Of a stretch of 64,000 nucleotides of DNA, positions 11,150 to 17,019 are shown piece after piece (position 1 is the first letter of the stretch; every line of letters starts with the position of its first letter). The DNA comes from Amycolatopsis sp. WQ 127309. Its GTDB lineage: Bacteria; Actinomycetota; Actinomycetes; Mycobacteriales; Pseudonocardiaceae. Location: assembly GCF_023023025.1 (NCBI RefSeq), contig NZ_CP095481.1, positions 4,030,001-4,094,000 of the forward strand, given 5' to 3'. The position numbers were made by a program, and so were the translations under genes. The notes below the pieces were generated by a model, which was not told where the DNA came from, did not search any database, and was given only the letters and a program-made list of their open reading frames with translations.

Positions 11150-14100
11150 TCAGTCGCGCTCGATGAGGTGACCCACTACGTCCGGGCCCGGGTGCGCGTG
11201 GCCCGAGCCGTCGCGGCGGACGTCCACCTCCGGTAGCTCCACCGGGTCGCCGTTGCGGGCCGAACCGGCCGGGCGTGGGCCGATCCAGGCCACCCTCAGC
11301 TCTGTCTCGCCCTTCAAGAACCGCTGGGCCCTGACGCCGCCCGTGGCTCGGCCCTTGGCCGGGTACTCGCTGAACGGCGTCACCTTGACGCTGACGCCCG
11401 TCGCCGTGATCACCATCGGCTCGCCGTGCTCGTCGTCATCCGTGCGGAGCGCTCCGAAGAACACCGCCGCGCCCGCGCCGACGTTGATGCCCGCCATACC
11501 GCCGCCCTTCAGGCCCTGGGGGCGGACCAGCGACGCCGCGTACTTCAGCAGCGAGGCCTCCGACGTCAGGAACGCCAGCATCTCCGAGCCGTCGCGGAGC
11601 CACGTCGCGCCGACGACCTCGTCGCCGTCCTTCAGGCTGATCACTTCGAACTCGTCCGAGCGGACCGGCCACTCCGGCGAACACACCTTCACGACGCCCG
11701 CGCGCGTGCCCAGCGCCAGGCCCGGCGATCCTGCCGCCTGCTCGCCCAGCGGCGCGATGCCGACGACCGTCTCGCCCTTCTCCAGCGGGACCAGCTCGCG
11801 AGCCGCCATGCCGCCGCGCAGGGAGACCGTGCCCGCTTGCTCCGGCAGCACCGGCAACGGCAGCACGTCCGTCTTGAACGCCCGGCCGCGGCTCGTCACC
11901 AGCAAGACCTGGCCGCGCGCGGTCGTGTGGACCACCGCCGCGACGGCGTCGTGCTTCACACGGCCGTTGCGCCGGCGTGTCTCCGTCGACTCCTCGGACT
12001 CCGCCGCCGTGCGCGCGACCAGGCCGGTCGCCGACAGGATCACCTGACACGGGTCGTCCTCGACCTCCAGCGGCCCGGACGGCTTCGACGCGGCCAGGAC
12101 CTCCTTCAGGTCGCCGTCGATCAGGGCGGTGCGGCGCTCGGTCGGGAAGTCCTTCGCGATCTTCGCCAGCTCAGACGAGACGAGCTTCTTGAGCACGGAC
12201 TCGTCGTCGAGGATCTTCGTCAGCTCCGCGATCTCCTCGCGCAGCCGCTCCTGCTCGGACTCCAGCTCGATGCGGTCGTACTTGGTCAGCCGGCGCAGCG
12301 GGGTGTCGAGGATGTAGGTCGCCTGGATCTCGGAGAGCTTGAAGCGCGACATCAGGCCGTCTTTCGCGGCCTGCGCGTTGTCGCTCTCGCGGATGAGCTT
12401 GATCACCTTGTCGATGTTGAGCAGGGCGATCAGCAGGCCGTCGACCAGGTGCAGCCGCTCTTCGCGCTTGCGGCGCCGATACTTCGTGCGCCGCGTGACG
12501 ACCTCGTAGCGGTGCCGGAGGAAGACCTCCAGCAGCTCCTTGAGGCCCAGGGTCTGCGGCTGGCCGTCGACGAGGACGAGGTTGTTGATGCCGAACGACT
12601 GCTCCAGCGGCGTGAGCCGGTAGAGGTCGGCCAGCAGGGCCTGCGGGTTGACGCCGACCTTGCACTCGATGACCAGCCGGGTGCCGTTCTCGCGGTCGGT
12701 GAGGTCCTTGACGTCGGCGATGCCGGTGAGCCGCTTGGACTTGTTGACCTCGTCGGTGATCTTCTCGATCACCTTCTCCGGGCCGACGCCGTAGGGCAGC
12801 TCGGTGACGGTGATCGCCTGCCGCCCCCGGCTGCCTTCGAGCGGCCCGGTCTCGACGTTCGCGCGCATCCGGACGACGCCGCGGCCGGTCTCGTACGCGC
12901 GGCGCACCTCGTCGAGGCCCAGCAGCTTGCCGCCGGTGGGCAGGTCGGGGCCGGGGACGAACTCCATCAGCTTGTCGAGCGTCGCGGTCGGGTGCGTGAT
13001 CAGCCACCGCGCCGCCGCGACGACCTCACCGAGGTTGTGCGGGATCATGTTGGTCGCCATCCCGACCGCGATCCCGGACGTGCCGTTGACCAGCAGGTTC
13101 GGGAACGCCGCGGGCAGCACGGTCGGCTCTTCGAGCGAGCCGTCGTAGTTGGGCCGGAAGTCGACGGTGTCCTCACCGAGCTCACCGACGAGCTGCATGG
13201 CTTCGGGCGACATGCGTGCTTCGGTATAACGCGAAGCAGCCGGGCCGTCGTCCGGTGAGCCGAAGTTTCCGTGCCCGTCGATGAGCGGCGCGTTCAACGA
13301 GAAGTCCTGTGCGAGGCGGACCATCGCGTCGTAGATCGCCGTGTCACCGTGCGGGTGGTACTTGCCCATGCAGTTGTGGACGACGAAACCCTCGGCCGTG
13401 AATTCGTGATCGTCGGTGCCGACCTGGATGTCGTAGGTGACGTCCGCCGCGACCGGTTCGACCGAAACGACTTCGAGGAACGAGAACCCCTTCAGCGCGT
13501 CGAGGTTGTCGGCGAGCGGGGAGCCGATCCGGCGCAGCTTGTCGATCCAGCCGTCTTGGCACGCGCGGCCGAGCGGGAACGAGCGGTCGGCGAGAGCGGT
13601 GCCGTGCCGGTCCTTGCCGTAACGGACCTTGGCTCCGCTCGCCGCGGACAGCGACGCCCGGAACGCGGTTCCGGTGGTGTCGCGGAACCAGCCGCCGCCG
13701 ACGTGGGCGGCCGAGAACTCGGCCATGACCGCCTTGGCGGGCAGGCGGTCGTGGCCCTGCTTGCCGCCGTAGCCGTAGACGATCTCCGTGAGCCGTTCCA
13801 GATCGCTCTTTTTGTAGCCGATCTCGGTCCACGGCAGCAGGATGCGCGCCAGCGCGGCGGCGTCCGATCCGCTGACGGACAGGCCGAGCAGGGTCTTGTG
13901 GCCATCGGTCTTCTGGTTGGACCAGTGGTGACCGTGGATCCCCAGATCCGCGAGCATCGCGTAGACCTGCCGGACGAGCGTTTCGCTCGTGCTGACGTAG
14001 ACGATCTCCCGGTGGTTCTTGCGGATGTAACCGTCGCCGTCGAAGATCCCGGCGAGGAACGGCGCCCACGAAGACCGGTCCGCGAGGACCTCCGCCGGAA

Positions 14101-14938
14101 CGGCCTTCGCGTCACTGAGCGGGCTCCCGGCCGCGAGCAGACCATCGTGGCGGGAGAAGGTGAGGATGTGCTGGTCGCGCCATTCCGGCTTCGCCGCGGC
14201 GCGGTGTCCCCGGGACACACCCAGACCGTTGGCCGTCGCCCATGCGTACACCGCGTCGAGCGGCTCGACGTCGCACATGTGGATCCGGACCCGGCCGTCC
14301 GCGTCGCGGTTGCGGTCGACCGCGAACCCTTCGGCCGTGATCAAGCCGAGGAGGTAGGCGTAGCGGTCGCCGCCCGCCGGCCGCTCGTCCCGGCGGGCGT
14401 TCCCGTAGGCGACGGTCAGCCGTCCGGTGAGATCGCGGGCGTCCGTCCAGGTCAACGTCGAGTCTTCGGCAACGGTCCGGAACCGCTGGCCCGGCGTCAC
14501 GAGCATCGTGTGCCCGTTCGACCACGTGATACGCACGAGGTCGGACACCGGGTTCTCGTAGACCTCGGTGACGGGAACCGCTCGGCCCCGGCTGTCGAGG
14601 ACCCGGTCGCCGATCTCGATCTCCTCGATCGGCCGCAATCCGTCCGGGGCCGAGACCAGCGCGCCGCGGACGAAGCAGTCACCGACGACGCGGGACGACT
14701 TCACATACGCGTGCGTGGGCCGGTAACCCTGCTCGTGCATGGAAAAGAGGATCCGGCGGTGCACCGGCTTCAGGCCGTCCCGTGCGTCCGGGAGGGCGCG
14801 TGAGTGGATGACCGAATACGCGTACTCCAGGTAGGAGTCTTCGATCTCCGTCTTCAGCGAGTTGTCGAAGACGTTCGCACCGGCGGAGTCGAACGCGCTG
14901 GGATCGACCTTGGTGGTGGGGCCCTTGCGGCGTGCCAC
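11150..14938 (-). CDS. parC: DNA topoisomerase IV subunit A (ParC) precursor with intein
   Basis: A 1262-residue precursor that yields an 827-residue type IIA topoisomerase breakage-reunion subunit after splicing. The GTG start at 14938 has AAGGAG seven bases upstream. Extein residues 1-87 end at SSRVVGD; an intein covers 88-522; the protein resumes at CMGKYHPHGDTAIYD. The catalytic tyrosine is Y571 of the precursor in AASRYTEAR. The coiled-coil gate and a C-terminal beta-pinwheel follow, without a recognisable GyrA box, and the gene lies directly downstream of parE. Both favour topoisomerase IV (decatenation) over gyrase. Splicing is required for function because the intein interrupts the DNA-binding helix region where quinolone-resistance changes occur. 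Confidence 0.94.
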   Translation of the reverse strand: MARRKGPTTKVDPSAFDSAGANVFDNSLKTEIEDSYLEYAYSVIHSRALPDARDGLKPVHRRILFSMHEQGYRPTHAYVKSSRVVGDCFVRGALVSAPDGLRPIEEIEIGDRVLDSRGRAVPVTEVYENPVSDLVRITWSNGHTMLVTPGQRFRTVAEDSTLTWTDARDLTGRLTVAYGNARRDERPAGGDRYAYLLGLITAEGFAVDRNRDADGRVRIHMCDVEPLDAVYAWATANGLGVSRGHRAAAKPEWRDQHILTFSRHDGLLAAGSPLSDAKAVPAEVLADRSSWAPFLAGIFDGDGYIRKNHREIVYVSTSETLVRQVYAMLADLGIHGHHWSNQKTDGHKTLLGLSVSGSDAAALARILLPWTEIGYKKSDLERLTEIVYGYGGKQGHDRLPAKAVMAEFSAAHVGGGWFRDTTGTAFRASLSAASGAKVRYGKDRHGTALADRSFPLGRACQDGWIDKLRRIGSPLADNLDALKGFSFLEVVSVEPVAADVTYDIQVGTDDHEFTAEGFVVHNCMGKYHPHGDTAIYDAMVRLAQDFSLNAPLIDGHGNFGSPDDGPAASRYTEARMSPEAMQLVGELGEDTVDFRPNYDGSLEEPTVLPAAFPNLLVNGTSGIAVGMATNMIPHNLGEVVAAARWLITHPTATLDKLMEFVPGPDLPTGGKLLGLDEVRRAYETGRGVVRMRANVETGPLEGSRGRQAITVTELPYGVGPEKVIEKITDEVNKSKRLTGIADVKDLTDRENGTRLVIECKVGVNPQALLADLYRLTPLEQSFGINNLVLVDGQPQTLGLKELLEVFLRHRYEVVTRRTKYRRRKREERLHLVDGLLIALLNIDKVIKLIRESDNAQAAKDGLMSRFKLSEIQATYILDTPLRRLTKYDRIELESEQERLREEIAELTKILDDESVLKKLVSSELAKIAKDFPTERRTALIDGDLKEVLAASKPSGPLEVEDDPCQVILSATGLVARTAAESEESTETRRRNGRVKHDAVAAVVHTTARGQVLLVTSRGRAFKTDVLPLPVLPEQAGTVSLRGGMAARELVPLEKGETVVGIAPLGEQAAGSPGLALGTRAGVVKVCSPEWPVRSDEFEVISLKDGDEVVGATWLRDGSEMLAFLTSEASLLKYAASLVRPQGLKGGGMAGINVGAGAAVFFGALRTDDDEHGEPMVITATGVSVKVTPFSEYPAKGRATGGVRAQRFLKGETELRVAWIGPRPAGSARNGDPVELPEVDVRRDGSGHAHPGPDVVGHLIERD
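13373..14677 (-). other. Intein with LAGLIDADG homing endonuclease inside parC
   Basis: The 435-residue insert runs from C88 (CFVRGALVSAPDG, block A) to N522 (GFVVHN, block G) with C523 as the +1 residue. Block F shows YDIQVGTDDHEFTAEG with H511. Two dodecapeptides, LLGLITAEG (about 196-204) and LAGIFDGDG (about 295-303), mark a two-motif LAGLIDADG endonuclease. Block B reads MLVTPGQRF, with Gln151 where most inteins have His. The insertion lies between VVGD and CMGKYHPHG, unlike mycobacterial GyrA inteins, which sit next to the catalytic tyrosine. All other splicing residues are present, so activity is plausible. Confidence 0.93.
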
Positions 14939-14967: not shown

Positions 14968-17019
14968 TCAAGCGTCGATGGCGTCGCGGTCGATCCGGTC
15001 CGAGGAGGCGACCAGCCAGTTGCGCCGGGGCTCGACCTTCTCGCCCATCAGCAGTTCCAGCGCGCCCTCGGCGGCGTCGGCGTCGTCCATGGTGATGCGG
15101 CGGACCGAGCGGGTGGACGGGTTCATCGTGGTGTCCCACAGCTCGTCGGCGTCCATCTCGCCGAGGCCCTTGAACCGCGGGACCGGCGTGACGATGCTCT
15201 TGCCCGCCCGCTCCAGCTGGGCGAACTTCGACTCCATCTCCTGCTGGGTGAAGGTGAAGTGCGTTTCCGGGTTGCGGCCCTTGGTGACGAGCTTGTGCAA
15301 CGGCGGCATCGCGGCGTACAGCCGGCCGTCCTCGATCACCGGGCGCATGTACTTGGCGAACAGGGTGATCAGCAGGGTCCGGATGTGCGAGCCGTCGACG
15401 TCCGCGTCCGCCATCAGGATGACGCGGCCGTAGCGCATGGTCGTCAGGTCGAACGTGCGGCCGGTGCCCGCGCCCAGTACCTGCACGATCGACGCGATCT
15501 CGGCGTTCTTCAGCGTGTCGCCGAGCGAGGCCTTCTGGACGTTGAGGATCTTGCCCCGCAGCGGCAGCAGCGCCTGGTACTCCGAGACGCGCGCCATCCG
15601 CGCCGACCCGAGCGCGCTGTCGCCCTCGACCAGGAACAGCTCGCTGCGCGAGACGCCGGTGGTGCGGCAGTCGACCAGCTTCGGCGGCATCGCCGCGCCC
15701 TCCAGCGCGGTCTTGCGCCGGGCGGCGTCCTTCTGCTGCTTCTGGGTGAGCCGGACGCGGGAGGCGTCGACCACCTTCTGCAGCACGACCTTCGCCTCGG
15801 ACTTGGTCTTGCGGTCCTCGGTCCAGGCCTTGACGTGCTTGTCGACGATGCCCTGGATGACGCGGGTGGCGCCGGCGGTGGACAGCTCGTCCTTGGTCTG
15901 CGACGTGAACTGCGGCTCCGGCAGCCGGACGTGGATCACCGCGGTCATGCCCTCGAGGACGTCCTCGATGGTCGGCATGTCCTCCTTGGGCTTGAGCAGC
16001 CCGCGGGTCTTGGAGATGGCGTCCTGCAGCGCCTTGGCCATCGCGCGGTCGAAGCCACGGCGGTGCGTGCCGCCGTGCACGTTGCGGATCGTGTTGGTGA
16101 AGCACTCCACCGTGCGCTCGTAGCCGGTGCCCCAGCGCAGCGCCACCTCGATCTCGGCGCGGCGCTCCACATTGGACTGCATGACGCCCGCCGCGTCCGC
16201 CGCGTTCTCCTTGTAGGTGCCCTCGCCGGTGATCAGCAGCGTGCCGCAGACCGGCTTCTCGCCCGACGGGGTGAGGAAGTCGACCATGTCCACCAGCCCG
16301 TGCGGGAAGTGGAAGGTCTCCTCGTTGATCGTGTCCTCGATGGCGGTGCGCAGCACGTACGTGACGCCCGGGACGAGGAACGCGGTGTTGCGCATCTTGG
16401 CCCGCACGCCCTCGACGTCGAGCGCCGCGCCGGACTCGAAGTACCGCGAGTCGTACCAGTAGCGGATCGAGGTGCCGCCGCGCTCGCCGCGCTTCATCTT
16501 GCCGACGAGGTTCAGCCCGGAGCGGCGGGTGAACTTCGCCTTCGGGCCGGGCGCGTCGAAGGTGCCGGGGACGCCGTGCTTGAACGACATCTGGTGGACC
16601 TTGCCGTCCTGCTTCACGGTGACGTCGAAGCGGTGCGACAGCGCGTTGACCGCCGACGCGCCGACGCCGTGCAGGCCGCCGGAGGTCTTGTAGCCCGAGC
16701 CGCCGAACTTGCCGCCGGCGTGCAACCGGGTCAGGACCAGTTCGACGCCGGACAAACCGGACTTGGCGTGCGTGCCGGTGGGGATGCCGCGGCCGTCGTC
16801 GTCGACCTGGACGCTGCTGTCGGCGTGCAGGGTGACGACGATCTTGGTCGCGTACCCGGCGACACCTTCGTCCGTGGAGTTGTCCACCACCTCGGAGAAG
16901 AGGTGGTTGATACCACGGCTGTCGGTGGAGCCGATGTACATCCCGGGGCGTTTGCGGACGGCTTCGAGACCCTCGAGATGCGTCAGGTCATCGGCCCCGT
17001 ACAAGGTCTCGGCAGTCAC
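14968..17019 (-). CDS. parE: DNA topoisomerase IV subunit B (ParE)
   Basis: A 683-residue ATPase subunit that drives strand passage by ParC. The GTG start at 17019 has GGGAGA eight to nine bases upstream. GHKL ATPase motifs are evident: EVVDNSTDE, DDDGRGIP and SGGLHGVGAS. The transducer domain follows, then the TOPRIM domain with LFLVEGDSA and ILMADADVDGSHIRTLL, and the C-terminal PRFKGLGEMD. Length fits ParE or short GyrB. It lies 29 bp upstream of parC, so the pair forms one operon. Gyrase itself usually sits near dnaA, absent here, which supports the topoisomerase IV reading. Confidence 0.94.
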   Translation of the reverse strand: MTAETLYGADDLTHLEGLEAVRKRPGMYIGSTDSRGINHLFSEVVDNSTDEGVAGYATKIVVTLHADSSVQVDDDGRGIPTGTHAKSGLSGVELVLTRLHAGGKFGGSGYKTSGGLHGVGASAVNALSHRFDVTVKQDGKVHQMSFKHGVPGTFDAPGPKAKFTRRSGLNLVGKMKRGERGGTSIRYWYDSRYFESGAALDVEGVRAKMRNTAFLVPGVTYVLRTAIEDTINEETFHFPHGLVDMVDFLTPSGEKPVCGTLLITGEGTYKENAADAAGVMQSNVERRAEIEVALRWGTGYERTVECFTNTIRNVHGGTHRRGFDRAMAKALQDAISKTRGLLKPKEDMPTIEDVLEGMTAVIHVRLPEPQFTSQTKDELSTAGATRVIQGIVDKHVKAWTEDRKTKSEAKVVLQKVVDASRVRLTQKQQKDAARRKTALEGAAMPPKLVDCRTTGVSRSELFLVEGDSALGSARMARVSEYQALLPLRGKILNVQKASLGDTLKNAEIASIVQVLGAGTGRTFDLTTMRYGRVILMADADVDGSHIRTLLITLFAKYMRPVIEDGRLYAAMPPLHKLVTKGRNPETHFTFTQQEMESKFAQLERAGKSIVTPVPRFKGLGEMDADELWDTTMNPSTRSVRRITMDDADAAEGALELLMGEKVEPRRNWLVASSDRIDRDAIDA

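Follow-up and report, generated by a model that had tools for sequence, protein, structure and literature searches.

A LAGLIDADG intein in ParC of Amycolatopsis and its lineage at the GyrA/ParC DNA gate, with an invariant glutamine in place of the block B histidine

The stretch analysed here, called the window in what follows, comprises 64,000 nucleotides of Amycolatopsis sp. WQ 127309 (contig NZ_CP095481.1, positions 4,030,001 to 4,094,000) and carries a parC gene that contains an intein (Table 1), the nearest named relatives of which are likewise from Amycolatopsis. The precursor is ParC with an intein inside one frame and matches DNA_topoisoIV (Pfam) with E 1.2e-146. We assign the host to ParC because a GyrB/ParE-type open reading frame (ORF) lies directly upstream, the GyrA-box pattern has no match in the window extein, and the genome holds a separate gyrA. 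The latter is an intein-free frame of 872 amino acids with QKRGGKG, and a whole-genome PF00521 search returned the window parC (in two pieces) and this one gyrA, and nothing more. The insert is not a chance ORF effect, since 58 of 80 genomes of the genus hold the same gene uninterrupted at both intein sites considered below.

The splice junctions read VVGD/CFVRGA...GFVVHN/CMGKYH (a slash marks the insertion point). Domain searches and the predicted structure identify a Hint fold, with intein_Cterm (NCBIfam) at 24.7 bits (cut-off 15.6), Hint_2 (Pfam) at E 6.7e-6 and 27 bits, slightly below its cut-off of 28.4, and Intein_splicing (Pfam) at 2e-4, below its cut-off. LAGLIDADG_3 (Pfam) matches with E 4.3e-12, and both motifs retain their catalytic acids. 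The original prediction of a 435-residue intein at 13373..14677 (precursor residues 88-522) with a two-motif endonuclease thus agrees with junctions, domain matches and motif positions (109-117 and 208-216), and its estimates of about 90 kDa for spliced ParC and 47 kDa for the intein compare well with the computed masses of 89.8 kDa (827 residues) and 47.4 kDa. The region following the endonuclease core (residues ~310-395) had no family match in the Pfam/NCBIfam-type domain search and is possibly a DNA-recognition part. The junctions had also been called complete, which is correct for Cys1, the terminal His-Asn and Cys+1 and, as in class 1 inteins generally, for the Asp and His of block F, but block B has T-x-x-Gln instead of T-x-x-His. 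On this substitution the prediction was silent, as it was on the ParC proteins with two inteins and the ParE inteins described below.

Table 1. Positions in the window of the parC precursor, its intein and the neighbouring gene.
Feature	Position	Strand	Details or basis
parC precursor frame	11150..14938	-	1262 amino acids + stop, single open frame
N-extein, residues 1-87, ending ...SSRVVGD	14678..14938	-	ORF and alignment to E. coli GyrA
Intein, 435 amino acids, precursor residues 88-522	13373..14677	-	ORF, domain searches, relatives, predicted structure
Cys1 codon TGC	14675..14677	-	
Block B TPGQ, intein residues 61-64	14486..14497	-	
Gln64 codon CAG, position of the usual block B His	14486-14488	-	
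LAGLIDADG motif 1, LLGLITAEG, residues 109-117	14327..14353	-	acid E116
LAGLIDADG motif 2, LAGIFDGDG, residues 208-216	14030..14056	-	acid D215
Conserved region after endonuclease core, ~residues 310-395	13493..13750	-	
Block F TYDIQVGTDDHEF, residues 414-426	13400..13438	-	
Terminal His-Asn, residues 434-435	13373..13378	-	
+1 Cys codon TGC, first of C-extein	13370..13372	-	
C-extein, residues 523-1262, with stop	11150..13372	-	
Tyr/Thr site	13225..13226	-	empty in window gene
parE-type gene, 683 amino acids, without intein	14968..17019	-	directly upstream of parC

The glutamine at block B is invariant throughout the lineage to which the window intein belongs. A first protein search with the window intein as query gave 115 proteins, among the best 120 of 125, that carry an intein cleanly at the window site (the remaining five begin inside or after the intein), and Gln is present in 115/115. 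The count rises to 182/182 distinct inteins with a scan of species genomes, in which the best 80 of 148 relatives were kept and 79 gave a clean intein, and to 266/266 with a second protein search that used an Omnitrophota GyrA as query; T-x-x-Q was found among the best 120 of 255 relatives of that search in 116 untruncated and also in 4 truncated proteins. The pattern used for extraction demanded Cys1 and the final Asn, and the presence of these two residues across relatives is therefore partly imposed by it, while block B was left free. Asp and His of block F are each conserved in 266/266 and the penultimate His in 264/266; the sole two exceptions, the acidobacterial GyrA inteins L121 and L122, have a penultimate Ser (VSN/C). 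Inteins at the Tyr/Thr site, which often reside in the same proteins, served as a control and have the histidine in all 36 distinct extracted cases. Likewise, block B is TPDH in the ParE inteins of five genomes, and other inteins compared by eye, with hosts recognised by eye only, also show His. In an alignment to the family profile, TliVMA and PI-PfuI have their block B His at the position of the glutamine, and an independent residue able to replace that histidine was not found among positions conserved in at least 95% of the sequences, as judged from sequence alone.

Canonical class 1 inteins, as described in part of PMC10663303, have T-x-x-His at block B, and passages of a 2014 review (PMC4031507) rank this histidine as the most conserved intein residue, with two exceptions listed. 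Excerpts of PMC6333167 mention a very small subset of inteins without it, and an engineered intein in which a bulky -1 residue can compensate for its absence. In 15 of 18 papers matched in the open-licence full text of PubMed Central (PMC), supplements being outside its scope, the notation TXXQ does not occur. The invariant glutamine, rather than the insertion site or a redox role, is the noteworthy finding.

The N-extein aligns up to residue 72 of the full-length E. coli GyrA chain 7z9c_A, which places the insertion point between the equivalents of residues 72 and 73. The window gene is filled here, at VVGD/C, and empty at Tyr/Thr. We take the filled site to lie within the quinolone-resistance region (67-106), away from the contacts at 83 and 87, and the Tyr/Thr position to be that of the mycobacterial GyrA intein, so that the distinction originally drawn between the two sites holds. 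The residue preceding the intein is acidic in 277 of 278 cases (Asp 167, Glu 110, Asn 1). The mycobacterial intein (Mxe GyrA, PDB 1am2; NCBIfam NF038098) differs from ours in its Tyr/Thr site, its Thr+1 and its block B His, and NF038098, whose cut-off is 1850 bits, scores the window intein at 34. PI-PfuI (1dq3) and TliVMA (7qss) also bear an endonuclease, but have other hosts and His where the window lineage has Gln. Closer in this respect is the Tko CDC21-1 intein, which, according to passages of PMC4031507, is naturally without the block B His, uses Lys58, resides in an MCM helicase and is one of two such cases; the window lineage, by contrast, comprises 266 distinct sequences with Gln throughout.

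The suggestion that the site is new is contradicted by the search for insertions after VVGD, which are common in ParC of Pseudonocardiaceae and Micromonosporaceae and in GyrA of several phyla. Hosts among the best 120 proteins of the first search are mostly ParC of Pseudonocardiaceae and Micromonosporaceae, but four (P0083, P0084, P0087, P0090) are GyrA-like, with 42-45% identity to the window extein, and 12 of the 120 bear a second intein at Tyr/Thr. The genome scan added bacterial GyrA hosts from Acidobacteria, Gammaproteobacteria, Aquificota, Omnitrophota and others, and archaeal ones from Thermoplasmata, Woesearchaeota, Lokiarchaeota and Methanophagales; those outside the actinobacteria are mostly metagenome-assembled, with binning errors possible. 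Open-licence PMC full text yielded no article pairing inteins with parC, and the site may stand in intein collections or supplements; the available portion of PMC9348778 reports 23 intein-bearing archaeal GyrA excluded from its dataset and states neither site nor motif. A third GyrA intein site, GNFG/CFTGDT or GNFG/CFTKDT, is located between the other two in P0087, L122, L129, L132 and L183.

In an unrooted tree of 68 chosen inteins (48 hand-picked and 20 random, hosts labelled by flank identity), the 13 ParC inteins fall on one side of a single branch with a Shimodaira-Hasegawa-like approximate likelihood ratio test (SH-aLRT) support of 99 and adjoin GyrA inteins of Acidobacteria and Gammaproteobacteria; one ParC row, P0080, has a long branch. 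This topology fits one ancient move between GyrA and ParC. Retention of the endonuclease acids goes with length: 113 of 116 long inteins have them, whereas 52 of 66 short inteins do not. Intact long and degenerate short inteins side by side are the usual picture of a homing cycle.

Within the genus, occupancy is patchy. Apart from the uninterrupted genes, ParC of the 80 genomes has the window-site intein only in 14, the Tyr/Thr intein only in seven and both in one, the latter site thus being filled in 8/80. At least ten changes of occupancy for the window site and six for Tyr/Thr are required on the ParC tree, a quick tree with SH-aLRT support only. The wider sample of the order has matches at E 1e-20 in 21 of 397 genomes. 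All 15 occupied alleles of the genus have Cys at the +1 position, while the 65 unoccupied ones have Val in 63, Ala in one and Cys in one; the Val pattern is found in 218 of the 397 genomes of the order, gyrA and parC pooled. The unoccupied allele with Cys belongs to G062 (L033), a genome with 6% contamination, and two genomes of the order sample, G112 (L235) and G205 (L236, with its Tyr/Thr intein still present), also combine an intein-less ParC with Cys at +1. Judging from these residues, the three alleles are likely scars of intein loss. Ratios of nonsynonymous to synonymous substitution rates (dN/dS) have medians of 0.20 in the intein, 0.19 in the endonuclease core and 0.10 in the extein.

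We interpret these observations as very probably reflecting an old LAGLIDADG intein lineage at the GyrA/ParC DNA gate, with a putative homing endonuclease and a splicing reaction that does not need the block B histidine. The intein would be translated in frame with ParC, Cys1 would start splicing by an N-S acyl shift, Cys+1 would perform the transesterification, and cyclisation of Asn435 would free the intein, leaving an 827-residue ParC with Cys after VVGD where Val is usual. The endonuclease would cut intein-less alleles, and repair would then copy the intein into them. With an invariant Gln at the place of the block B His, the first step needs an alternative activation, which might come from the glutamine, from other residues or from strain in which the acidic -1 residue takes part. 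The most likely course suggested by the sequence is that Cys1 initiates splicing in the ordinary way but that the first step departs from the standard one. That the His-less first step belongs to a lineage confined, as sampled, to GyrA and ParC, and that the glutamine is a catalytic replacement matched to the acidic -1 residue, we regard as somewhat probable. A histidine beside an acidic -1 residue might provoke premature N-terminal cleavage, and the pairing of Gln with the acidic residue is proposed here as a hypothesis. As only one parC was found in the genome, it is a fair inference that decatenation depends on splicing.

Several observations weigh against this interpretation or limit it. 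Intein distances track extein distances (Mantel r 0.757, a value reached by none of 5000 permutations), and the near/far ratio of the flanking DNA is 1.23 between carriers and 1.11 between carriers and non-carriers; among the genus genomes there is no sign of co-conversion of flanks, those of carriers being no more alike than expected. Since intein distance follows extein distance and the flanks are not homogenised, there is no support for recent homing among these genomes. The corresponding site in the genome's own gyrA is empty although 32 of 36 base pairs match the parC site. Furthermore, the members of the lineage were gathered by similarity, so that the invariance of the glutamine applies to this lineage and not to every intein at the site.

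The patchy distribution might be due mainly to an intein that was present of old and was lost repeatedly when carriers recombined with intein-less alleles, instead of to repeated homing, an explanation we consider evenly balanced. The distance correlation and the Cys residues in the intein-less alleles of G062, G112 and G205 agree with it, but close pairs of genomes differ in occupancy, and Val in 63 of the 65 unoccupied alleles implies that most of these were never occupied or were replaced whole. A decaying intein, in which the loss of His marks weakened or lost splicing, has a parallel in the Arthrobacter DnaB intein pseudogene mentioned in PMC4031507, and would account for the exchange of a residue that the review passages rank as most conserved and for the missing endonuclease acids in the short relatives. 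We consider decay very improbable, however, given the invariance of Gln and of the block F residues, the near-complete conservation of the penultimate His and the single parC; selection at a dN/dS of about 0.2 and the conservation of the endonuclease acids likewise argue against it.

Control of topoisomerase IV by a redox or metal switch through Cys1, as originally proposed, is very unlikely. Both nucleophiles, Cys1 and Cys+1, are cysteines, and conditional splicing through a cysteine pair is known from a mycobacterial DnaB class 3 intein (excerpts of PMC6195587), but the same excerpts show redox inhibition not to be universal, DnaBi2 being spared. The window intein has no redox or metal motif when checked against 115 relatives and no additional conserved cysteine, its two further ones (135 and 373) being shared by 61/115 and 4/115 relatives, and 65 of 80 genus genomes are without the window-site intein. 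A split intein was suggested by five proteins whose first residue falls within the intein (P0059, P0081, P0098, P0114, P0117) and was rejected: they are probable mis-starts, P0114 and P0117 having full frames in genome DNA of the same organism (L141 M. lupini and L166 Actinoplanes sp. RD1), and the window frame runs unbroken through the N and C parts. Gene callers probably mis-start at intein-bearing parC. For phage-borne spread, a scan of viral contigs with the precursor as single query, suited to close relatives only, gave one match, to a non-relative.

Other inteins were met in topoisomerase IV and in the source genome. Five genomes (G022, G047, G073, G046, G070; L223-L227) have a ParE intein of 459-485 amino acids, GDSALG/C...HN/SARMAR, with an endonuclease read by eye as HNH-like. 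As the ParC of G022 also bears two inteins, its topoisomerase IV has three. Outside the window, at C1:2004562-2005239 of the source genome, lies a distant second intein (L002; 27% identity, block B TPDH), in a host that by eye resembles GTP cyclohydrolase I.

If our interpretation is true, the lineage would depart, naturally and on a large scale, from the best-conserved rule in the chemistry of inteins. Hundreds of inteins with an invariant glutamine allow a direct test, within a single protein context, of what the block B histidine does, and they would supply a scaffold for splicing after an acidic -1 residue. The type IIA paralogues GyrA and ParC are linked by hosting inteins at the same two sites, which opens jumping between paralogues and long-term persistence of inteins to study, in a genus whose ParE can carry one too.
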